From Lelliottia nimipressuralis (GTDB lineage: Bacteria > Pseudomonadota > Gammaproteobacteria > Enterobacterales > Enterobacteriaceae), in NCBI RefSeq assembly GCF_004402045.1, contig NZ_SOMG01000021.1, positions 248,001-312,000 of the forward strand: 64,000 nt of DNA, read 5' to 3'. Made by a program: the position numbers and the translations under genes. A model generated the notes under the pieces. The model worked only from the letters and a program-made list of their open reading frames with translations. It was not told the DNA's origin and did not search any database. This document shows, one piece after another, positions 1 through 19,776 of the stretch. Positions within the stretch are counted from its first letter, which is position 1. Every line of letters starts with the position of its first letter.

Positions 1-866
1 CTGGGTGAATCGGTAGACCGTCGGACTCTAAAAGACGTGGTTGAACTTTGGTTCAAGCTGCACGGCAAATCACTGACCGCCGGAGAGCCTGTTTACTACA
101 GAATGTTCCTCATTGATGCATGGGAAATACTCTCGCTACTGATCTCAGTTCGAAATTATTCATGCATTACCGTGATAAACGCCTGAAGGGTGAAATTTTT
201 TTATGAGAAATTATGGAAGAAAGGTGCCAGCCCGCTAACCATCAACCTTGGACAAAGTTATCTCAGCGGATTATTTAGCGAGTTGGCTCAACTCGGCTAT
301 TGCACGACACCAGACCCGCTGGAGAACGTGCGTAAGTTCACGATTGCAAAAATGGAATGGCTTGACTGACACATGAGCAAATCACTTAACTTTTGTACGA
401 CTGTAATCGCCCAAGACCCCTACTCACCCTCGTTGTTAAAATCTGCCTGAGCAAAGGGGAATGAGGGGTAAAGCCGTTAACCTGACCCGTTCTAAGGTTA
501 CAAAATACCGGATCGCTTTCATCAGAACCAAAGGTACTAAGAACCGCAGTATCCCACACAGCAAAGAGCTGTACGAGTAAATAATTGCTCTGGACGGCTT
601 TAGGTTCTTTATGGACTGCTATTTCCAGTATCTTTCCGTGACCGATTATTCTTCCTTGTGGGCAACTAACACAACTTCTGTGCCACTTTTCATCATTTCT
701 GATGGGAATATTCTTGTTCTGCTAAAAAACAGCAGGACACGACGACATCAAAATGACAATGCGTTATGCTCACTTAGTGCCTGATCACTTAGAAAAAGCA
801 CTTCGTTTCAATCCAATTGGAATATTAACGCTTTCTGATGCAATTAAAAGGTCAAACAATGGTTAA
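1..866 (+). pseudogene. Decayed P2-type phage integrase (tyrosine recombinase)
   Basis: Integrase-like peptides occur in order but in different reading frames. Residues resembling the N-terminal core-binding region (RTLKDVVELWFKLHGKSL) are at about 19-75. A stretch like GASPLTINLGQSYLSG lies near 220-275, ending at a stop near 369. NLTRSKVTKYRIAF and the following TKGTKNRSIP lie near 480-555. The C-terminal box DIKMTMRYAHL, with the nucleophile tyrosine context, is at about 745-780, ending at a TAA at 864-866. At least three frameshifts or stops separate these pieces. The first catalytic arginine region is unrecognisable, and the HxxR-type box near 665-690 reads LLCH where LRH is expected, so the enzyme must be dead. 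The 5' end lies outside the window. It marks the edge of an old integrated element; which phage is unknown. Confidence 0.8.
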
Positions 867-1581
867 GCTTTCTTTTCAATTTCCAATTTACGATTTTTCC
901 TTAACTTTTGAGATAATCAATACATTAATCATTCACAGTGAATCATCTATTGATAAAGGGATAAAAGAATATATGGAGAAAGGACCAGAGGAATATGTAA
1001 TCGATATATCACCAGATGAAGGATATTATAATTCAATAGATTACTACATGGGCCTTGATAGTTCATCTGTTGATCTTGATGAAATGTTTATAGAGTATTA
1101 CCCAAGCGTATTTCGCAGGTCAGTTTTTTTAACTATCTTTGGGATGTTTGAGCATGAAATTGAGAAATTCTGTAAAAACTTTGCGAATAAACATCTCATT
1201 CCAATAAACATTACAGATCTCAAGGGGAGTGGATTTGAACGAAGCCACCTTTTCATTCAGAAAATAGTGGGAATGGAGACTACAGTTCAGTATAATAATA
1301 TAAAAAAGATAACTAAGTTGAGAAACAGTTGTGCACACAATGATGCCAGATATGTAGAGAACGACGGACAAAATATCAAACTAATCACTGACCTAATGGA
1401 TGCACACCCGGACCTTTTCAAAAAAGACTTGAAACAAGTTCTATTCATGAGTGGCTCTTTATCTATGATTTTAGAATCTTTTAAAGAGTATCTTAATGAA
1501 GTGGAACAGGCATTAGAGAAGTATGAACAGCGCAGCTCTAGTGGCGACAAAGTGGCGGCAGCGGTTGGCATTACCCCGTAA
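859..1581 (+). CDS. Hypothetical protein with HEPN-like RX4H motif
   Basis: A 240-residue, AT-rich ORF whose codon use differs sharply from the neighbouring ars and ybj genes. I chose ATG 859 because AAGG lies seven bases upstream; an in-frame ATG at 838 has no such site. The start overlaps the tail of the integrase remnant by eight bases. The protein looks all-helical and carries RNSCAH (R155 to H160 from this start), the RX4-6H pattern of HEPN ribonucleases, followed by a helical C-terminus. HEPN proteins are often toxins or defence effectors, but no nucleotidyltransferase antitoxin or other defence gene is adjacent, so the role is unknown. The last 15 or so residues (SSSGDKVAAAVG...) are GC-rich and resemble integrase C-termini, suggesting a chimeric end. 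The HEPN call rests on one motif plus overall character. Confidence 0.6.
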   Translation: MVKLSFQFPIYDFSLTFEIINTLIIHSESSIDKGIKEYMEKGPEEYVIDISPDEGYYNSIDYYMGLDSSSVDLDEMFIEYYPSVFRRSVFLTIFGMFEHEIEKFCKNFANKHLIPINITDLKGSGFERSHLFIQKIVGMETTVQYNNIKKITKLRNSCAHNDARYVENDGQNIKLITDLMDAHPDLFKKDLKQVLFMSGSLSMILESFKEYLNEVEQALEKYEQRSSSGDKVAAAVGITP

Positions 1582-1642
1582 TCGTCCCCCCTTACCACCA
1601 ACCTAACTTATTGATTATCTTGCAAGTCATTGTTTTCACTAA

Positions 1643-1666
1643 CCCATTTACATAAATGGTTTTTTG
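1643..1666 (+). terminator. Possible terminator after the HEPN-like ORF
   Basis: CCATTTA and TAAATGG form a perfect 7-bp inverted repeat with a two-base spacer (1644-1659), followed by a run of T. The stem is AT-rich, so it would be a weak terminator; it could also be an operator-like palindrome. Confidence 0.4.
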
Positions 1667-1716
1667 TTGCCTGAAATTCCCCTCCCTCTAATCCCACCTT
1701 CTCTCTTACCATCAAA

Positions 1717-1740
1717 ACATATATGATTAAACATATATAA
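1717..1740 (+). promoter_or_regulatory. Likely ArsR operator/promoter of arsRBC
   Basis: ATATATG and CATATAT form a perfect 7-bp inverted repeat with a six-base spacer (1719-1738), 25 bases before the arsR start. An AT-rich dyad at this position is what ArsR-type repressors bind, so autoregulation by arsenite is expected. The site is assigned by symmetry and position only. Confidence 0.6.
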
Positions 1741-1763
1741 AAATCACACCAGCAGGAAACCCC

Positions 1764-2084
1764 ATGGTTCACCCGCTCCAACTCTTCAAAACCCTATCCG
1801 ACGAAACGCGGCTCGCCATCGTTATGCTGCTCCGCGAAGCGGGCGAGCTGTGCGTCTGCGATCTCAGCTCCGCGACCACCGAGTCGCAGCCTAAAGTCTC
1901 CCGCCATATGGCCCTGCTGCGCGAATCCGGGTTGGTTATCGATCGCCGTGAGGGGAAGTGGGTGTATTACCGTCTCTCTCCGAACATGCCTGCGTGGGCG
2001 GCAACCGTTATCGACAACAGCTGGAACTGCCTGCGGGACGAGACCCGTATGAAGCTGAAAAACCGACTTCCGGGCTCGTGCTAG
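1764..2084 (+). CDS. arsR: Arsenite-responsive repressor ArsR
   Basis: A 106-residue winged-helix repressor of the SmtB/ArsR family, a little shorter than E. coli ArsR (117). The metal-sensing motif ELCVCDL places C30 and C32 in the DNA-recognition region, where arsenite binding releases the DNA. The third cysteine found shortly after these in K-12 ArsR is replaced by serine here (DLSS instead of DLCM), which should leave a functional two-cysteine sensor. SQPKVSRHMALLRESGLV is the recognition helix region. It is the first gene of arsRBC, with a dyad operator immediately upstream and arsB 40 bases downstream. Confidence 0.95.
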   Translation: MVHPLQLFKTLSDETRLAIVMLLREAGELCVCDLSSATTESQPKVSRHMALLRESGLVIDRREGKWVYYRLSPNMPAWAATVIDNSWNCLRDETRMKLKNRLPGSC

Positions 2085-2124
2085 GAAAAACACATTCACA
2101 AAAACAGATATAACGGAGTAAACG

Positions 2125-3414
2125 ATGTTTCTGGCAGGGGCTATTTTTCTGTTTACGCTGGTACTGGTCATCTGGCAGCCCAGAGGGCTCAGTATCGGCT
2201 GGAGCGCCACCATCGGTGCCGTGCTGGCGCTGGCCAGCGGGGTGATCCACATTAACGATATACCTGTGGTGTGGAATATCGTCTGGAACGCCACGGCAAC
2301 GTTTATCGCCGTCATCATCATCAGCCTGCTGCTGGATGAGTCCGGCTTTTTCGAGTGGGCGGCGCTGCACGTTGCCCGCTGGGGAAACGGTCACGGGCGA
2401 TTGCTGTTTACTTATATCGTGCTGCTGGGCGCAGCCGTGGCGGCGCTGTTTGCCAATGACGGCGCGGCGCTGATCCTGACCCCTATCGTTATCGCCATGC
2501 TGCTGGCGCTGGGGTTCAGCAAGCAGGCCACGCTGGCGTTTGTGATGGCGGCAGGCTTTATCGCCGATACCGCCAGCCTGCCACTAATTGTCTCGAACCT
2601 GGTCAACATCGTATCGGCAGACTTCTTTAAGCTAGGGTTCAGCGAATACGCCTCGGTGATGATCCCGGTGGATATTGCCGCAATTGCCGCAACGCTGGCG
2701 ATGCTGCATCTCTTCTTCCGCAAGGAAATTCCCCCGGAATATGACCTGGCAAAACTCCGCGAGCCCGCGCGGGCCATTCACGACCTCCCGACGTTCAGAA
2801 CGGGCTGGATCGTCCTGCTGCTTCTGCTCGTCGGCTTCTTTGTGCTTGAACCTCTCGGCATTCCGGTCAGCGCCATTGCGACCGTCGGCGCGCTAATTTT
2901 ATTCGCTGTCGCAAAACGCGGACATGCGATAAACACCGGAAAAGTGCTGCGCGGCGCACCGTGGCAGATCGTTATCTTCTCGCTGGGGATGTATCTGGTG
3001 GTGTACGGCCTGCGCAATGCCGGGCTGACGGAATATCTCTCAGGCGTACTGAACAGCCTGGCCGGACACGGGCTGTGGGCTACCACGCTAGGTACCGGGT
3101 TCATCACCGCGTTCTTGTCATCCATAATGAACAATATGCCCACGGTGCTGATTGGCGCGCTCTCTATTGATGGCAGCACGGCAACAGGATTGATAAAGGA
3201 AGCGATGATTTACGCCAACGTGATTGGCTGCGATCTGGGGCCGAAAATCACGCCCATCGGTAGCCTTGCCACCCTGCTCTGGCTCCACGTGCTGGCGCAG
3301 AAAAACATGACGATTACCTGGGGCTACTATTTCCGGACGGGCATCATTATGACGCTGCCGGTCCTGTTTGTGACGCTCGCCGCGCTGGCGCTACGTCTCT
3401 CCTTCACACTGTAA
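2125..3414 (+). CDS. arsB: Arsenite/antimonite efflux permease ArsB
   Basis: A 429-residue inner-membrane carrier, the full length expected for ArsB, with hydrophobic segments along its whole length. It exports arsenite and antimonite, driven by the proton gradient when no ArsA ATPase is present. The family signatures are clear: [14 protein letters not shown] near the first third, and [17 protein letters not shown] and [22 protein letters not shown] near the C-terminus. It sits between arsR and arsC, 12 bases before arsC. No arsD or arsA is present, so this is the simple chromosomal three-gene form. Confidence 0.96.
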
Positions 3415-3426
3415 TGAGCCACTGAT

Positions 3427-3858
3427 ATGAGCCACATCACCATTTACCACAACCCGGCCTGCGGCACCTCGCGCAACACGCTGGAGATGATCCGCAACAG
3501 CGGCACGGAGACAGAGATCGTTCTTTATCTGGAAACGCCGCCGTCGCGCGATAAGCTGACCACACTGATTGCCGATATGGGCATTTCAGCGCGGGATCTG
3601 CTGCGTAAAAACGTGGAGCCCTATGAACAGCTCAGCCTTGCCAAAGATAACTTCACCGACGACCAGCTTATCGATTTTATGCTGCAATACCCGATCCTGA
3701 TTAACCGTCCGATTGTGGTGACTCCGCTGGGCACGCGCCTGTGCCGTCCGTCTGAAGTCGTCCTCGACATCCTGCCGGACGCGCAAAAAGGGGCTTTTGC
3801 CAAAGAGGATGGCGAAGCCGTTGTGGACGCCAGCGGGAAAAAAATCTCGCCAAAGTAA
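3427..3858 (+). CDS. arsC: Glutaredoxin-dependent arsenate reductase ArsC
   Basis: A 143-residue cytoplasmic enzyme that reduces arsenate to arsenite with glutathione and glutaredoxin, supplying the substrate of ArsB. The catalytic cysteine is C12 in YHNPACGTSRNT, the hallmark of the R773/E. coli ArsC type with a thioredoxin-like fold. The later segment NRPIVVTPLGTRLCRPSEVV contains conserved arginines that help bind the oxyanion. Length agrees with E. coli ArsC (about 141). It is the last gene of arsRBC; a hairpin without a strong U-tract follows at 3910-3936. Confidence 0.95.
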   Translation: MSHITIYHNPACGTSRNTLEMIRNSGTETEIVLYLETPPSRDKLTTLIADMGISARDLLRKNVEPYEQLSLAKDNFTDDQLIDFMLQYPILINRPIVVTPLGTRLCRPSEVVLDILPDAQKGAFAKEDGEAVVDASGKKISPK

Positions 3859-3909
3859 CCCATTGAAAATGTCACAGTAAAACCTGCCAACGACATCCCC
3901 CACCCGCCG

Positions 3910-3936
3910 GCCGGGTTGCATCAGCCGAAACCCGGC
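3910..3936 (+). terminator. Hairpin after arsC
   Basis: GCCGGGTT and AACCCGGC form a perfect 8-bp stem with an 11-base loop. Only a short TTTT lies a few bases further on, so this is a weak terminator or an mRNA-stabilising 3' stem. Confidence 0.4.
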
Positions 3937-3976
3937 ACATACTTTTGAGGGTTAAGTCTGGTGAGGGTATGCAGGT

Positions 3977-4747
3977 ATGGGTCTTAAAAACAAAACCGCC
4001 ATCATCTTCGGCGGCAGCGGCGCCATCGGCAGTTCAGTGGCACACGCTCTTGCGCGTGAGGGGGCGGATGTATACCTCGCTGCACGTGACCACGCCAGGC
4101 TGGAGCAGGTCGCCGGCAGCATTCGCGCCGAGGGAGGGTCTGCCAGCACGTTTGCTTTCGATGCGCTCGATGATGCCTCGCAGCTCCCGGACCTTGCCCG
4201 CATTGATATCGTCGTCAACGCCACGGGCTTTATGCACAATCAGGGCAAACGCCTTGAGGCGTTAACGCTCGACGAGTTCAGGCAAGGTTTCGATCCCTTC
4301 CTGGCCGCGTATTTTAACATTGCGAAAGCCGCGTCGCCCCGTATGGGCGGCGAGCGTGACGGGACCATAATTACCGTCGTCGCCCCCGCCGCCAACATGA
4401 TAATGGCGGGCCACCTCGGGCATATCGTCGGCTGCGCGGGAACGGAAGCCTTGACCCGAGCGCTTGCGGCTGAGCTGGGGACACAAAATATTCGCGTACT
4501 CTGCGTGCGTTCGCACGCGATAGCCGACGCGGTGAAGGCGGGTTCGTATGTGGGTGCCATTTTTGCCGAAAAGGCGCAGGTGATGGGGATTACGGTTGAG
4601 CAGTTTCTCAGTGGCGCAGCGCAAAGTACCCTGACGCATCGCCTGCCGACGCTGGCGCAGGTGGCAGACACCATTACGTTTCTGGCCTCAGATGCGGCAA
4701 GCGCCATGACGGGAACCACCGTCAATATGACCGCGGGCGCAACCTAG
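3977..4747 (+). CDS. SDR-family protein lacking the canonical catalytic residues
   Basis: A 256-residue Rossmann-fold protein of the short-chain dehydrogenase/reductase family. The cofactor loop GGSGAIG is near residue 12, an NNAG-like element (VVNATG) near 80, and the C-terminal SDR pattern ([25 protein letters not shown]) is well kept. The active site is not: aligned on the conserved EALTR stretch, the YxxxK positions read H149 and C153, and the expected serine is A136. It may therefore be a binding protein, a regulator or an enzyme with altered chemistry; it should not be called an oxidoreductase without testing. Its stop overlaps that of rcdA on the other strand by two bases. The ribosome site is weak. 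It is absent from this position in K-12 and may have come with the ars segment. Confidence 0.75.
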
Positions 4748-5295
4748 CAGCCGCCCTCGCCCGCAATCCTGCCCACCATCGCCCGGATCTCTTCGCGGGT
4801 TAAGGGCGCCCGGTCAGTAACGTAGTGCAGCGTCATCCCTTCAATAAAGGCATCCAGCGCGCGGGTGGTGACCGGGTCGAACCACTGCTCCAGCGTAGTC
4901 TGGCTCATCTTCATCCAGTCCTGCATCACCGTTTTGAGCGCCGCGCTGCGGTGCATAAAGGCGTAGAGCTGATACATCAGCGCCATGTTGTGCGGCGTGG
5001 TCACCTGCGAACTGTGGATCAGCGTGGTGATGGATTCGCACGCCATTTCCGGCCCGGTGACGCCAGCAAAGAAATCCCGGTACTGCTGCGACATCTGCCG
5101 GGTAAACCACGTGAAGGCCTCCTCCAGCAGCGGTTCCATGCCGTCGAAATAGTAGGTCATCGATCCCAGCGGCACGCCCGCGCAGGTGGCGATTTTACGG
5201 TGCGTGACGGCGTGAATACCGTGCTCGGCAATGGTATCGAGCGTTGCCTGCAGGATCTTCTCCCGGCGATGCGGATCGTTCGGTGGTCTGCTCAT
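4744..5295 (-). CDS. rcdA: TetR-family regulator, RcdA (YbjK)-like
   Basis: A 183-residue TetR-type regulator. The start at 5295 is preferred over an in-frame ATG at 5331 because GAGGAA precedes it. The N-terminal helix-turn-helix spans roughly residues 12-55 ([22 protein letters not shown]); the rest is the variable helical ligand domain. It is divergent from ybjJ, exactly as ybjK/rcdA is in E. coli, where RcdA affects stress and biofilm genes such as csgD. The assignment leans on synteny; sequence identity to K-12 RcdA was not checked. A TGTACA-AA-TGTACA element sits just upstream and is the likely operator for self-regulation and for ybjJ. Confidence 0.7.
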
Positions 5296-5314
5296 AAATT
5301 CCTCACGTGGTTTA

Positions 5315-5328
5315 TGTACAAATGTACA
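5315..5328. promoter_or_regulatory. Candidate operator between rcdA and ybjJ
   Basis: Two TGTACA hexamers, each palindromic, are separated by AA, 20 bases before the rcdA start and about 50 before ybjJ. A symmetrical site of this kind in a divergent gap is typical for TetR-family autoregulation. A further partial copy (TTGTAC) lies at about 5353. Confidence 0.5.
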
Positions 5329-5376
5329 CAAACTTGCTAGTGTTGTCGCTATTGTTGTACTTCTGGTGCTACCCCA

Positions 5377-6591
5377 ATGACGCTGACCTCTCCCCGTAAA
5401 GCCCTGCAGCTACGCCTGTGGGCGCTATTTATGTTCTTCTTTATTCCCGGCCTGCTGATGGCCTCCTGGGCCACGCGCACGCCCGCCATTCGCGATATTT
5501 TGTCCGTATCTACTGCTGAGATGGGCATCGTGCTGTTTGGCCTGTCGATAGGCTCGATGAGCGGCATCCTCTGCTCCGCGTGGCTGGTGAAGCGCTTCGG
5601 TACGCGAGCAGTGATCCGCACCACCATGTGCTTCGCGGTGGTCGGGATGTTCGTGCTGAGCGCCGCGCTGTGGTGTGCGTCGCCGGTTCTGTTTGCCCTG
5701 GGGCTGACGGTATTTGGCGGCAGCTTCGGCTCGGCGGAAGTTGCCATCAACGTTGAAGGGGCGGCGGTCGAGCGCGAGATGAACAAAACCGTGCTGCCAA
5801 TGATGCACGGCTTTTATAGCCTCGGCACGCTGGCCGGTGCCGGCGTGGGCATGGCGCTGACGGCCACTGGCGTGAGCGCGAATCTGCATATCCTGCTGGC
5901 GGCGCTGGTGTGCATCATTCCGATTCTGACCGGCATCCGGGCGATCCCGGACGGTACCGGCAAAAACTCCGCTGACGAACAGCATTCGGCCGAAAAAGGG
6001 CTGCCCTTCTACCGCGATTTTCAGCTGATGCTGATTGGCGTGGTGGTGCTGGCGATGGCGTTCGCGGAAGGGTCCGCCAACGACTGGCTGCCGCTGCTGA
6101 TGGTGGACGGTCACGGCTTTAGCCCGACCTCCGGCTCGCTGATTTACGCCGGGTTTACGCTGGGGATGACCGTAGGACGCTTCACCGGCGGCTGGTTTAT
6201 CGACCGCTACAGCCGCGTGGCGGTAGTGCGTGCCAGTGCCCTGCTCGGCGGCCTGGGCATCGCGATGATCATCTTTGTGGATGTGGACTGGATTGCCGGC
6301 GTCTCGGTGATCCTCTGGGGGCTGGGCGCGTCGCTCGGCTTCCCGCTGACCATTTCAGCCGCCAGCGACACCGGCCCGGATGCCCCGACGCGCGTCAGCG
6401 TGGTGGCGACCACGGGCTATCTCGCCTTCCTGGTCGGGCCGCCGCTGCTCGGCTTCCTCGGTGAGCACTACGGGCTGCGCAGCGCCATGCTGGTGGTATT
6501 AGGGTTGGTCATCATCGCGGCGCTGGTGGCGCGCGCGGTAGCAAAGCCGGAAACAAAACAAACGACACTGGAGAAGGGATATGAGCGTTAA
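5377..6591 (+). CDS. ybjJ: MFS transporter YbjJ
   Basis: A 404-residue major facilitator protein with about twelve hydrophobic segments. It begins near [27 protein letters not shown], characteristic of the YbjJ group (fucose-permease-like). The substrate is unknown. The gene is divergent from rcdA, so control by that regulator is plausible. Its 3' end overlaps the ybjI start by 11 bases, implying translational coupling, as in the K-12 pair. The ATG at 5377 has no strong ribosome site, so the exact start is slightly uncertain. Confidence 0.85.
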
Positions 6592-7393
6592 ACTGATCGC
6601 CGTCGACATGGATGGCACTTTTCTGAGCGATGCCAAGACCTATAATCGCCCGCGCTTTCTGGCGCAGTACGCCCGGATGAAGGCGCAAGGCATTCGCTTC
6701 GTGGTTGCCAGCGGTAACCAGTACTACCAGCTCATCTCCTTTTTCCCGGAGATTGCGCATGAAATTGCCTTCGTCGCCGAAAACGGCGGCTGGGTCGTGA
6801 GCGAAGGTGAAGACGTCTTTAACGGTGAACTGTCGAAAGCCCATTTCGCCACCGTCGCGAACGTGTTAAACGACGTGCCGGGTATTGAGATCATCGCCTG
6901 CGGCAAAAGCAGCGCATACACGCTGAAATGCTATGACGACGGCTTTAAAGATATCGCGGCGAAGTACTACCACCGCCTCGAAATGGTCAGCGATTTCGAC
7001 AACCTGAACGATATTTTCTTCAAGTTCGGGCTCAACGTGTCTGACGATGAAATTCCGCGTATTCAGGCGCTGCTGCATGAAAAACTGAGTGACATCATGG
7101 TGCCCGTCACCACCGGTCACGGCAGTATCGATCTGATTATCCCCGGCGTGCATAAAGCCAACGGTCTGCGGATCCTGCAAAAGCGCTGGGGCATAGACGA
7201 CAGCGAAGTGGTGGCCTTCGGGGACAGCGGCAACGACGTGGAGATGCTGCGTCAGTCCGGGTTCAGCTTTGCGATGGCGAATGCCAGACCGCATATTAAA
7301 GCGGTGGCGCGTTTTGAAGCGCCGCATAATAACGACGAAGGCGTACTGGATGTGATTGAGAAGGTGTTGAACGGGGAGGCACCGTTTAATTGA
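6581..7393 (+). CDS. ybjI: HAD phosphatase YbjI (Cof-type)
   Basis: A 270-residue haloacid-dehalogenase-superfamily phosphatase. Motif I is DMDGT with nucleophile D9; motif IV appears as [11 protein letters not shown] near residue 210; the cap domain lies between. E. coli YbjI dephosphorylates the riboflavin intermediate 5-amino-6-(5-phosphoribitylamino)uracil and flavin-like phosphates; the same role is inferred here. It overlaps the end of ybjJ, so the two are co-transcribed. The protein is a paralogue of YbiV at 29178-29993: both share [17 protein letters not shown]. In K-12 ybjH lies between this gene and mdfA; here only a 60-base gap remains. Confidence 0.9.
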
Positions 7394-7409
7394 CCGCGTG
7401 CGGTCTGGT

Positions 7410-7443
7410 GCCCTCACCCTGACCCTCTCCCACGGGGAGAGGG
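7410..7443. repeat. CCCTCTCCC/GGGAGAGGG hairpin repeat, copy 1
   Basis: A short palindrome with arms CCCTCTCC and GGAGAGGG lies between the convergent ends of ybjI and mdfA. A related copy is at 53155-53179. It is a dispersed enterobacterial hairpin, distinct from the REP elements, and could act as a bidirectional terminator. Confidence 0.6.
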
Positions 7444-7453
7444 AATAAACAGG

Positions 7454-8686
7454 TTAAGGTTGCAGGGCGTTCCCGACGCGTTTGTCTTTCAGGAACACCA
7501 CCATCAGTCCAACCCACAGCGCGCCGTTGGCGAGGTTAAACAGACTGAACAGACCGTTGCCGCCCATCGCGTAAGCATGTTTGCTCACCTCGATTCCGAC
7601 GGTAAAAATCAACATCTGCAGCATCCCCATCGCTGCTGACACCGTACCTTTGCTCATCTCGCTGGCAAACAGCGTCAGGCGCACCAGCCCGGCGTTCGCC
7701 ACGCCAATCCCGAAGGCGTAAATGCTCAACCCTGCCGTCATCCACAGATAAGCGTGAGATGACGCGACGGTTGCCACCGCAGCCAGAATCAGCCCTGCCG
7801 CAATCGGCCAGCCGCCCATGATAATCAGTGAACGCACGGTGCGTCGTGACGTCAAACGTGCCAGCACCAGGTTGCCGATAATCAACGCGCCAAAGATCGG
7901 CACCTGCAGCAGACCGTACTCATAGCTGCTGAGCTTTTCACCGCTGATGATAATGACCGGCGACTGCGCGATCCAGGCCAGCAGCGGCAGGCTAACGAAC
8001 CCGGTCGCCAGCGCGCCCGCAACAAAGCGGACATTCTTCAGCACTTCTTTGTAATCCCGCCCCAGCTCTTTCAGCGAGAGTTTCTCGCCGATGCGGGTGG
8101 CCGTTTCCGGCATCGCACGGTGCAGGCCAAAGAACGCGAAGGCGGCGAGAACCGCAAAGAGCACGAACATCCCTTCCCAGGGCGCAACATGGACCCACGC
8201 GGCCCCCACCAGCGGCCCGAGTAACGGGGCGATCAGCGCCACGTTCGCCATCAGCGCGGTAATTTTGATACACACCGCCTCTTCAAACGACTCCTGAATG
8301 GCGGCATACCCCACGGCACCGATAAAGCACAAGCTGACCCCCTGCAGGAAACGCAGCAGGGTGAATTGTTCAATGTTTTGCGCCAGCAGCGTGGCGAGAC
8401 AGGTCACGATGAACCACACCACGCCCGTCAGCATCACCGGACGACGGCCAATACGATCCGACAGCGGGCCTAACAGCCACTGCAAAAACATACCGCCTGC
8501 CAGATAGGCGGTCATGGAGGTCGGTACCCACTCGATTCCCGCGTTGTACTGCGCCACAACGGTCAGCATACCGGGCTGGATCATATCGTTGCCGATATAG
8601 GTTGAGAATTCGTAGAGCACCAGACACAGAGGGAAAAGCAACGCCTGACGACCCAGACGTGAACCAGAAGAAGAACGGTTTAACAT
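7454..8686 (-). CDS. mdfA: Multidrug efflux pump MdfA (Cmr)
   Basis: A 410-residue, 12-segment MFS drug/proton antiporter of exactly the E. coli length, with the two sequences nearly identical over long stretches. E26 and D34 in [10 protein letters not shown], the membrane acidic residues needed for cationic drug transport, are present. LLRFLQG with the conserved arginine near 112 and the MFS loop [13 protein letters not shown] are also present. It exports chloramphenicol, ethidium, quaternary compounds and others and contributes to alkaline pH tolerance. It is a single gene on the minus strand, convergent with ybjI and divergent from the PAP2 gene. Confidence 0.96.
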
Positions 8687-18237: not shown

Positions 18238-19776
18238 TTATTTTAAATCCGCATCGTCAAAACTAAAGCCGGTGTCCGGCATGATGTAAAACCCGGTCAA
18301 CGCTTTGTTATGGGCTGACACCAGTTTCTCCACCACCAGCGGCACCCACGGTGACTCTTTCCAGATAATGTCCTGAGCGTCTTTGTAGAGGCGTGCCTTC
18401 TCTTCCGATTTGGTGGTTTTCAGCGCATCGGCCAGGTCTTTGTCCACCTGCGGGTTACTGTAGAATGCGGTATTGAACAGGGTTGGCGGCCAGTTCTGCG
18501 AGGCAAACAGCGGCGACAGCGCCCAGTCGGCTTCGCCGGTGGAGGCCGACCAGCCGGTGTAGAACATCCGCACGCCGCTCTCTTTCTGCCCTTTCCCTTC
18601 CACTTCTGCCGCACGTTGCCCGGCATCCATCGCGGTGACCTGCGCCTTAATACCCACCTGCGCCAGCTGCTGCTGGGTGAACTGCAGCACCTTCTGCGCA
18701 GTACTGTGATTATGCGACGACCACAGCGTGGTGCTAAACCCGTTCGGGAAGCCTGCCTCTTTCAGCAGCTCGCGCGCTTTGGCCGGATCGTACGGCCACG
18801 GCTGATAGCTCTGGGCATACGCGATAGCCGGCGGCAGCACGCCGGTGGCCGGAGTGGCATAGCCTGCGAAGGCCACTTTCACCAGCGCCTGGCGGTTAAT
18901 GGCGTAGTTGATGGCCTCACGCACCTTCGGGTTATCAAACGGCTTTTGCGTAACGTTCATGCTGATGTAGCGCTGCATGATCGACGGGCTGGCGACCAGC
19001 TCCAGCTTGCTGTTTTTCTGCAGAATCGCGGCCTGCTCATACGGGATCGGGAAGGCAAACTGCGCTTCGCCGGTTTGCAGCATCGCCGCGCGGGTGTTGT
19101 TATCCACCACCGGACGCCAGGTGATGGTGTCCAGCTTCGGCAGCCCCTGCTGCCAGTAGCCGCTGAATTTCTTCACCTTCACAAAGTCGGTCTGATTCCA
19201 GGTCACCAGTTCATACGGGCCGGTACCCACCGGGTGGAAACCAATCTCTTTACCGTATTTTTTCAGCGCGGCAGGAGAAATCATCGCCGTTGCCGGATGC
19301 GCCAGAATATTGATAAACGCGGAGAACGGCTCTTTCAGGGTGATTTTTACCGTCGTCGGGTCAACCACCTCGGTGCTGGCGATGTTTTTATACAGGTTAT
19401 AGCGCTTGAGGCTATTTTCCGGATTGCTGGCGCGATCGAGGTTAACCTTCACCGCTTCCGCGTTGAAATCGGTACCGTCCTGGAACTTCACGCCGGTTCT
19501 GAGCTTAATGGTATACACCAGCCCGTCGTCGGAGACGGTGTATCCCTCCGCCAGCACATTTTTCAGCTTCATCTCTTTATCCAGGCCAAAAAGCCCCTGG
19601 TAGAAAGATTTCGCCACCGCCTGCGACAGCGTGTCGTTGGCGTCATACGGATCGAGCGTGGTGAAATTAGAGCCGACGGCGACCACCACATCTTTGGCAG
19701 CGAACGCGGGGGCAGCGGCCAGGGCTGCCGTCACGCTCGCGGCTAACAACCATCTACGCGCTACAAATGTAACCAT
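18238..19776 (-). CDS. gsiB: Glutathione-binding periplasmic protein GsiB
   Basis: A 512-residue solute-binding protein of the peptide-binding class, delivering glutathione to GsiCD. The signal peptide (ending AAPAFA) is followed by the mature start [22 protein letters not shown]. The family pattern [19 protein letters not shown] occurs near residue 190. Length matches E. coli GsiB (YliB). It is five bases upstream of gsiC and 23 after gsiA. Confidence 0.95.

Follow-up and report, generated by a model that had tools for sequence, protein, structure and literature searches.

A HEPN-family gene behind the integrase of a ruined P2-type prophage, probably a stand-alone anti-phage effector

The window analysed here, a stretch of 64,000 nucleotides of Lelliottia nimipressuralis DNA, carries near its left end a gene whose product is best read as belonging to a new family of a known kind of predicted RNase effector, the HEPN proteins. 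We consider it probable that this protein is a stand-alone predicted HEPN RNase that serves as anti-phage cargo of P2-family temperate phages, phage-plasmids, plasmids and defence islands. The anti-phage role is predicted from guilt by association, and the protein most likely would act by killing or stalling infected cells before rival phages multiply. This reading draws on the sequence family, an invariant RX4H motif, a predicted HEPN-like fold, a position between integrase (int) and attachment site (att) in intact relatives, and an ORF that stays open in a ruined prophage. The features concerned, in window coordinates, are as follows.

1..865, + strand: decayed P2-type tyrosine integrase with Int_N matches, beginning about 150 bp left of the window; its frame ends inside the first HEPN codons.
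859..1581, + strand: HEPN-family protein gene, 240 aa (phrog_21382 family), in an ORF open from 838.
1321..1338, + strand: predicted RNase motif RX4H, R155-N-S-C-A-H160; R155, N156 and H160 are invariant in aligned relatives.
1540..1578, + strand: former integrase 3' tail, now the last 13 HEPN residues (SGDKVAAAVGITP), matching the C-terminus of the S40 integrase at 100% over 13 aa; similar DNA lies 3' of the HEPN stop in loci L038, L043 and L044.
1642..1668, + strand: terminator-like hairpin overlapping att, strong in two intact prophages and weakened here.
1655..1675, + strand: attR, the second copy of the rybB 3' end (2 mismatches to the pattern); the first copy, C16:244864-244884, lies left of the window.

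The reading frame is open from 838 to 1581 on the + strand (247 aa in the ORF list), as the first-pass annotation of this DNA had stated. Its start at 838 is the less likely one: ATG 859, giving 240 aa, is favoured, because the closest relatives begin MVK... and a Shine-Dalgarno-like AAAAGG precedes this ATG, and the numbering of R155 and H160 used in that annotation fits 859. The description as an AT-rich gene for 240 residues with an RNSCAH motif agrees with our data, since GC is 0.35 (versus 0.54-0.66 in sliding windows from 1751 to 8000), 240 residues follow from 859, and the motif, the sole RX4H of the protein, lies at codons 1321-1338. In 20,000 composition shuffles of the protein, RX4H arises in 14% and R[NDH]X3H in 1.9%, so the motif by itself proves little. 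We nevertheless accept it as real, and with it the earlier assignment to the HEPN signature, because R155, N156 and H160 are conserved across the aligned relatives, unchanged in 18/18 and in 25/25 members at identities down to ~20%.

The 25-member alignment consists of the window protein and 24 of 34 related loci; omitted were L004-L008, L053 and L054, which share contigs with other loci, the cut locus L009, and the presumed near duplicates L033 and L035. The 18-member alignment leaves aside the truncated Photobacterium relative L028 and some plasmid rows (Leptospira and others), and L010 and L011 stand outside both. Invariant positions are R86, S88, E98, R155, N156, H160 and L201 in the smaller alignment, and R86, R87, L91, T92, E98, E127, R155, N156, H160 and L201 in the larger one. 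All 25 members match phrog_21382, a phage family with no function assigned (best 5.5e-160), the window protein itself at 1.3e-8 over residues 1-195. It reaches no curated Pfam cut-off, and NCBIfam holds no relevant model for it.

The gene is rare. Searches with tblastn matched 95 plasmid records at E 1e-5 and 129 at 0.01; among INPHARED phages there was no match at 1e-5 and one at E 0.1. Of 5426 E. coli genomes, 25 have the full gene in the 60-80% identity band (75.4% for the row listed), and these copies are 99.3-100% alike. Overlapping scans of viral contigs gave 6, 21 and 5 loci, and genome contigs gave none in a first scan and two later. Whole-genome scans, with the own genome counted, found it in 2/61 genomes of the genus and 2/394 of the order, and the profile at 1e-6 in 4/398 of the phylum.

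An AlphaFold2 model of the window protein built from 25 sequences reached a pLDDT of 85.6 and a pTM of 0.80. It has long helices at 14-41, 73-111, 143-160 (with H160 at its end) and 200-227 and strands at 44-51 and 56-63, with low confidence at residues 1-8 and 231-240. Fourteen of the best 17 VIA-align rows against the PDB are HEPN-fold entries, rows 1-12 among them (HEPN/MNT-type toxins and YutE, which we take to be a HEPN protein), at Z 7.2-8.3, where a Z of ~8 is common for helical models by VIA's own yardstick and thus suggestive only. Rows 13-15 are unrelated proteins (Z 6.5-6.8, the best of them 6.8), and rows 16 and 17 are YggD/MtlR and AF_0298 (Z 6.1 and 6.0), the former counted as HEPN-fold following the consulted part of PMC3710099. 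The best PDB row in Foldseek is a HEPN/MNT entry at E 0.12, with none below 0.1, and a search of BFVD gave at best an uncharacterised myovirus protein (E 1.8e-3). A PDB sequence search returned no relative, only five chance matches at E 0.24 or worse; a model of the distant member L046, made from the single sequence without an alignment, was unusable (pLDDT 39). The fold search that the first-pass annotation had proposed thus ended in a predicted HEPN-like fold (pLDDT 85.6; Z up to 8.3) whose scores alone are suggestive, and our HEPN-like reading leans on motif conservation as much as on them. The annotation had named a missing HEPN fold together with an unconserved RX4H pair as evidence against itself; what we found was a predicted HEPN-like fold and a pair conserved in the aligned homologues.

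Profile comparisons point to two HEPN groups. At E 0.01, the PADLOC model RTasHEPN is matched by 15/25 members and AbiD by 4/25, and the window protein matches RTasHEPN at E 0.038. With hhalign, the family scored 92.7% over 89 columns to two proteins found with the RTasHEPN model, and 64.7% over 32 columns around the motif to Abi_2 proteins, the latter versus 0.2-0.3% for single-sequence controls (shuffled, integrase, KAP). The two RTasHEPN proteins match their own model weakly (4.5e-6 and 3.0e-4), and are therefore not a fair sample of it; one of the two, L084, coincides in position with L068, a locus of the RiboL set. For RiboL-PSP, hhalign gave 0.3%, the Pfam model was weakly matched by 6/25 members, and the motif was present in only 2/6 recovered ORFs. 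Usable ORFs for these sets came from 6/14 RiboL-PSP, 5/8 Abi_2 and 2/4 RTasHEPN loci.

The weak AbiD/Abi_2 similarity around the motif raises the alternative of an AbiF-like toxin restrained by a neighbouring non-coding RNA in a type III-like manner, and an RNA antitoxin has a precedent in prophage AbiF (PMC12373285, in the part consulted). We regard this as unlikely. The window protein scores 14.9 bits against Abi_2 (PF07751), below the Pfam cut-off of 25.6. Rfam yielded no match at gathering score in window 1-6000 and only tRNA and RybB in 11 loci (Rfam 15, which may not hold abiF-type RNA), and phages with the int-HEPN arrangement have almost no intergenic space. A predicted RNase acting alone stays our preferred reading.

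Judged from its sequence, the region around the gene is what remains, over 4.8 kb, of a P2-type prophage that sits at the end of the rybB sRNA gene. RybB (RF00110) lies left of the window at 14799-14877 of L012, the locus in whose numbering the left flank is given here. A 21-bp stretch of the rybB 3' end at L012 14864-14884 is repeated with two mismatches at 19655-19675 (window 1655-1675); the att pattern is present twice in L012, with 0 expected in shuffles. Besides this repeat, the signs of a P2-type prophage are a P2-type int (tblastn with intact P2-type integrases, E 2e-51, L012 17862-18845) and remnants at about L012 15270-15960 that match an E. coli P2-family prophage in its CII-region and CI proteins, the CI match being partial. 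The order between the att repeats is CII/CI remnants, KAP NTPase gene, broken integrase, HEPN gene; since only those genes are present, the stretch is a P2-type prophage without structural genes. The first-pass suggestion of mobile-element cargo thereby gains a named element. Table 2 of PMC3032704, a source consulted in part, lists rybB among the P2 sites of the E. coli strains W, B and Crooks, and one P2 prophage at rybB carries retron Ec86.

Several further observations concern the ends of this prophage. The terminator-like hairpin folds at -9.4 kcal/mol in both L001 and L016 (z -2.65 and -2.84) versus -4.0 in the window (z -0.81), and a terminator scan of the window locus did not pick it up. 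A weak copy of the integrase-tail DNA (3 mismatches in 23) lies just inside attL at L012 14934-14956, by chance or as the trace of an older prophage; it was rejected as attL, the att core being the rybB 3' end. We also rejected an att core inside the HEPN gene, which a 36-40 bp match in ~1,090 E. coli genomes lacking the full gene had brought up, because the core lies 75-95 bp to the right of it, at the rybB 3' end, and the 39 bp are old integrase tail. Between attR and an rcdA/ybjJ-like pair, window 1764-3858 holds ORFs resembling arsR-arsB-arsC; E. coli L001 has rcdA directly 3' of the prophage.

The earlier placement of the ORF at the edge of a dead integrase proved right: the remnant spans 1-865 and overlaps the first HEPN codons. 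Over the 999 bases aligned to L001, the integrase carries 13 frameshifting indels and 4 in-register stops, and against S40 it carries 11 and 5; the same aligner reports 3 frameshifting indels between the intact integrases S40 and L001, whose ends differ. The HEPN ORF, by comparison, has no frameshifting indel or stop against L001 in 723 bases, and against L036 it has a single-base deletion and a single-base insertion that cancel out, and again no stop. Even decay would predict roughly 7 to 12 disabling changes in it. The gene may therefore either have been retained for a time after the death of the phage or have been refreshed by recombination. Compared with the E. coli copy, differences by codon position number 36/23/118, mostly at third positions, with dN 0.16 and dS saturated. 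The gene may be silent in this genome, because promoter-like matches around the genes are below chance (8 versus a shuffle mean of 15.2), CI is matched only in part and the hairpin at the terminator is weaker than in intact prophages.

The dead prophage has two open cargo genes, a KAP NTPase gene before int and the HEPN gene after it. The former (483 aa, L012 16316-17767) encodes a KAP P-loop NTPase (PF07693, 1.6e-38; PADLOC candidate PDC-S20, 1.2e-85) and occupies the slot between CI and int. The claim that no partner is adjacent is thus true inside the window, but this gene ends 233 bp to its left. In E. coli the CI-int slot holds a KAP gene in L089 (32% over 275 columns to the one here), in L091 a KAP gene that an IS seems to interrupt, and in L087, L088 and L090 DUF4041. 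KAP and HEPN, the two genes still open, and KAP recurring in this slot in L089 and L091, might be taken as one two-part defence system split by int. Such a system is improbable: HEPN goes with a different CI-int gene in L001 and with just a small ORF at that place in L017, and the KAP gene of L089 is accompanied by a 270-bp ORF in place of HEPN.

Intact phages place the HEPN gene between int and att. E. coli YZLc4-1 (L001) and DSM 103246 (L017; HEPN protein WP_000238244.1) both have CI, then a further gene, then int and HEPN, the CI-int gene of L017 being that small ORF, and in L001 HEPN is followed by an att-like stretch and then rcdA. In L017 (8797-11189), a truncated TonB-receptor gene and ptsG, instead of rcdA, come after the int-HEPN end, so the right flank of this prophage was rearranged or the prophage inserted elsewhere. 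The same int type lies directly upstream of HEPN in 4 of 11 further loci with called neighbours (L036, L038, L043 and L044, the last with int in two ORFs), whose HEPNs are 75-43% identical to that of the window. Gaps between int and HEPN in intact phages are ~10-60 bp, and HEPN diverges more than int in 6/6 pairs compared (for example, int 73% and HEPN 46%).

The ends of the integrases tell how this arrangement may have arisen. The HEPN-less S40 integrase ends in PLATLPSGDKVAAAVGITP. L001 and L017 have another int end, and there, as in the window, the HEPN protein itself finishes with SGDKVAAAVGITP; in L038, L043 and L044 HEPN stops before DNA resembling the old integrase tail. From this comparison, HEPN was inserted near the int end, and one branch reads on into the old tail of int. 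The tail-like DNA behind the HEPN stop in L038, L043 and L044 looks kept as if it were an integrase arm-binding site.

Other genes are found at the same place. Among the 5426 E. coli genomes, int is present in 1125, HEPN in 25 and the 270-bp (89-aa) ORF in 208. In a spread sample of 40 rows for the int-att slot, int itself lies over the tail in 32; the other eight have HEPN (1), the 270-bp ORF (6), or a Panacea-domain gene with a 251-aa gene (1). These last two fillings come from rybB prophages of E. coli (L086, L087-L092); no Pfam family was found for the 89-aa ORF, and the Panacea-domain and 251-aa genes, seen in AST205, are possibly a toxin-antitoxin pair. We tentatively propose, as something possible but short of probable, that int-att is a cargo slot of the P2 family in which HEPN, the 270-bp ORF and the Panacea pair displace or take over the int 3' tail, share the att-overlapping terminator and are made only with int in lysogeny, HEPN being a new one-gene abortive-infection system. 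In open-licence PMC texts, among which most subscription papers are missing, no description of the HEPN family or of this slot was found.

A gene close behind int that ends before the same terminator-like hairpin might also encode an RNase that regulates the phage's own int or lysogeny transcript rather than acting on intruders. This we hold to be highly improbable, as relatives occur on phage-plasmids and in defence islands with no adjacent P2-type int, and 25 E. coli genomes carry the full HEPN gene versus 1125 with int. We thus return to action against intruders as the preferred role.

Relatives of the gene are also found on phage-plasmids, on plasmids and in defence islands, with Qat, Dsr1 and AbiJ as neighbours. 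One adjoins AbiJ (L024), one lies between QatABC and Mrr-type/SIR2-like genes (L097), and one sits beside an LA2681 HEPN and Dsr1 (L058). Others are behind a SprT/YgjP protease, ~4 kb from type I RM genes (L020), near an HNH gene and a DUF4062 gene (L098), behind finQ in two similar plasmid loci (L022, L023), behind a TPR gene (L021) and behind Ogr (L048). A 'nucleotidyltransferase' lies 2.5 kb from the relative on the other strand in L021, and a group II intron RT 4.4 kb away in L027; no reverse transcriptase is directly beside any relative examined. L099 (G105 C5) has its relative in a run of small same-strand ORFs that gives the impression of an integron cassette array, and another HEPN-like protein, found with the RTasHEPN model, ~66 kb away. 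In Pantoea and in SSU5/pHCM2-like replicons no recognised partner stands beside the relative, and, judged by annotation, a number of plasmid and phage-plasmid neighbourhoods are free of defence genes.

Upstream of the relative in four loci (L025, L029, L030 and L031), which we take to be SSU5/pHCM2-like phage-plasmids, lie a tRNA-Asn and a tract of 1-2 kb in which no genes are annotated. The tRNA just upstream suggested tRNA as the HEPN target, an idea that we rejected; the tract is not tied to HEPN, because 752 plasmid records match part of it and only 72 match at least 80% of the tract plus HEPN.

The neighbourhood comparison, which the first-pass annotation had recommended, therefore places the gene behind P2-type int or in other mobile and defence settings. 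No partner is common to all of them (hypothetical neighbours were profile-searched in part), though int recurs among P2-type phages and finQ in the similar plasmid loci L022 and L023. Such a pattern suits an effector that is self-sufficient and moves between mobile elements. The annotation had left the choice between a stand-alone effector and one half of a lost pair. HEPN/MNT toxins carry an RX4HXY tyrosine that is AMPylated by the MNT antitoxin. They are the closest solved folds, which would suit the toxin half of a HEPN/MNT-like toxin-antitoxin pair that has lost its antitoxin, yet the residue at H+2 is D, N or G in 18/18 members and D or N in 25/25, never Y. Upstream neighbours vary (int, RepB, SprT/YgjP protease, TPR, FinQ, AbiJ, small ORFs or unannotated DNA), and the int-HEPN gap of ~10-60 bp is too short for another gene. 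No MNT antitoxin gene was found at the window locus or in int-HEPN phages, where att follows HEPN. Because neighbours vary, the gap is too short and the tyrosine targeted by MNT is absent, we favour the stand-alone effector and consider a lost pair very unlikely.

How the stand-alone protein would work we infer from HEPN biology (PMC3710099, and PMC11087260 for Tha, each as far as consulted), from which dimerisation, catalysis, trigger and abortive outcome are all taken. The protein would dimerise, with the two R155/H160 sites forming one metal-independent RNA-cutting cleft. It would be made from a lysogenic transcript running repressor-cargo-int-HEPN and ending at the att-overlapping terminator, and would stay quiet in the healthy lysogen until a product of the infecting phage switched it on. 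Once active, it would cut RNA, the cell would stall, and the intruder would not multiply. If this is true, a function is given to the uncharacterised phage family phrog_21382 of P2-type prophages, SSU5/pHCM2-like phage-plasmids, plasmids and defence islands, and the int-att cargo site is worth adding to defence screens of P2-like phages. The locus also presents a dead prophage whose two cargo genes are still open while the integrase between them decays.

Comparison with known systems sets the gene among several of related design. In the consulted parts of PMC9519451 and PMC9122126, accessory defence genes stand at fixed places of P2-like prophages, and P2-related phages of Vibrionaceae are described as having a hotspot at CI-int; the positions named there are endonuclease-portal (tin/old), fun and CI-int, not int-att. 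DefensePredictor validated four HEPN-domain systems (PMC13092281, consulted in part), 6/21 systems in the part of PMC9519451 consulted have HEPN-like similarity, and PD-T7-4 is said to overlap an integrase gene. Compared by description alone, the phrog_21382 HEPN family could be among the HEPN systems of DefensePredictor or PMC9519451, or be PD-T7-4.

Like HEPN/MNT toxins (MntA-HepT, SO_3166), the closest solved folds at Z 7.2-8.3, the window protein carries RX4H, but it has neither an MNT partner at its locus nor the RX4HXY tyrosine. RTasHEPN (PADLOC PDLC03820, listed under DRT) is linked to it by a model that most members match. With AbiF/AbiD (Abi_2) it shares RX4H near the C-terminal part, the one-gene Abi format, occurrence on prophages and a weak profile match, whereas the protein falls below the Pfam cut-off and no companion RNA was matched in Rfam. 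The staphylococcal protein Tha has no detectable sequence relation to it (hhalign 0.1%; hmmsearch to Tha-1 below zero), is 301 aa long, is encoded between the repressor gene and int, has a tail protein as its trigger, and is accompanied by ith, an inhibitor gene that overlaps it in antisense, a point on which only ORF lists were compared for the window HEPN. Yet Tha resembles it in plan: in S. aureus prophages it is a single gene of the lysogeny module next to int, encoding a HEPN protein with R265NSIMH270, an RNase that inhibits host and phage replication when activated (PMC11087260, in the part consulted).
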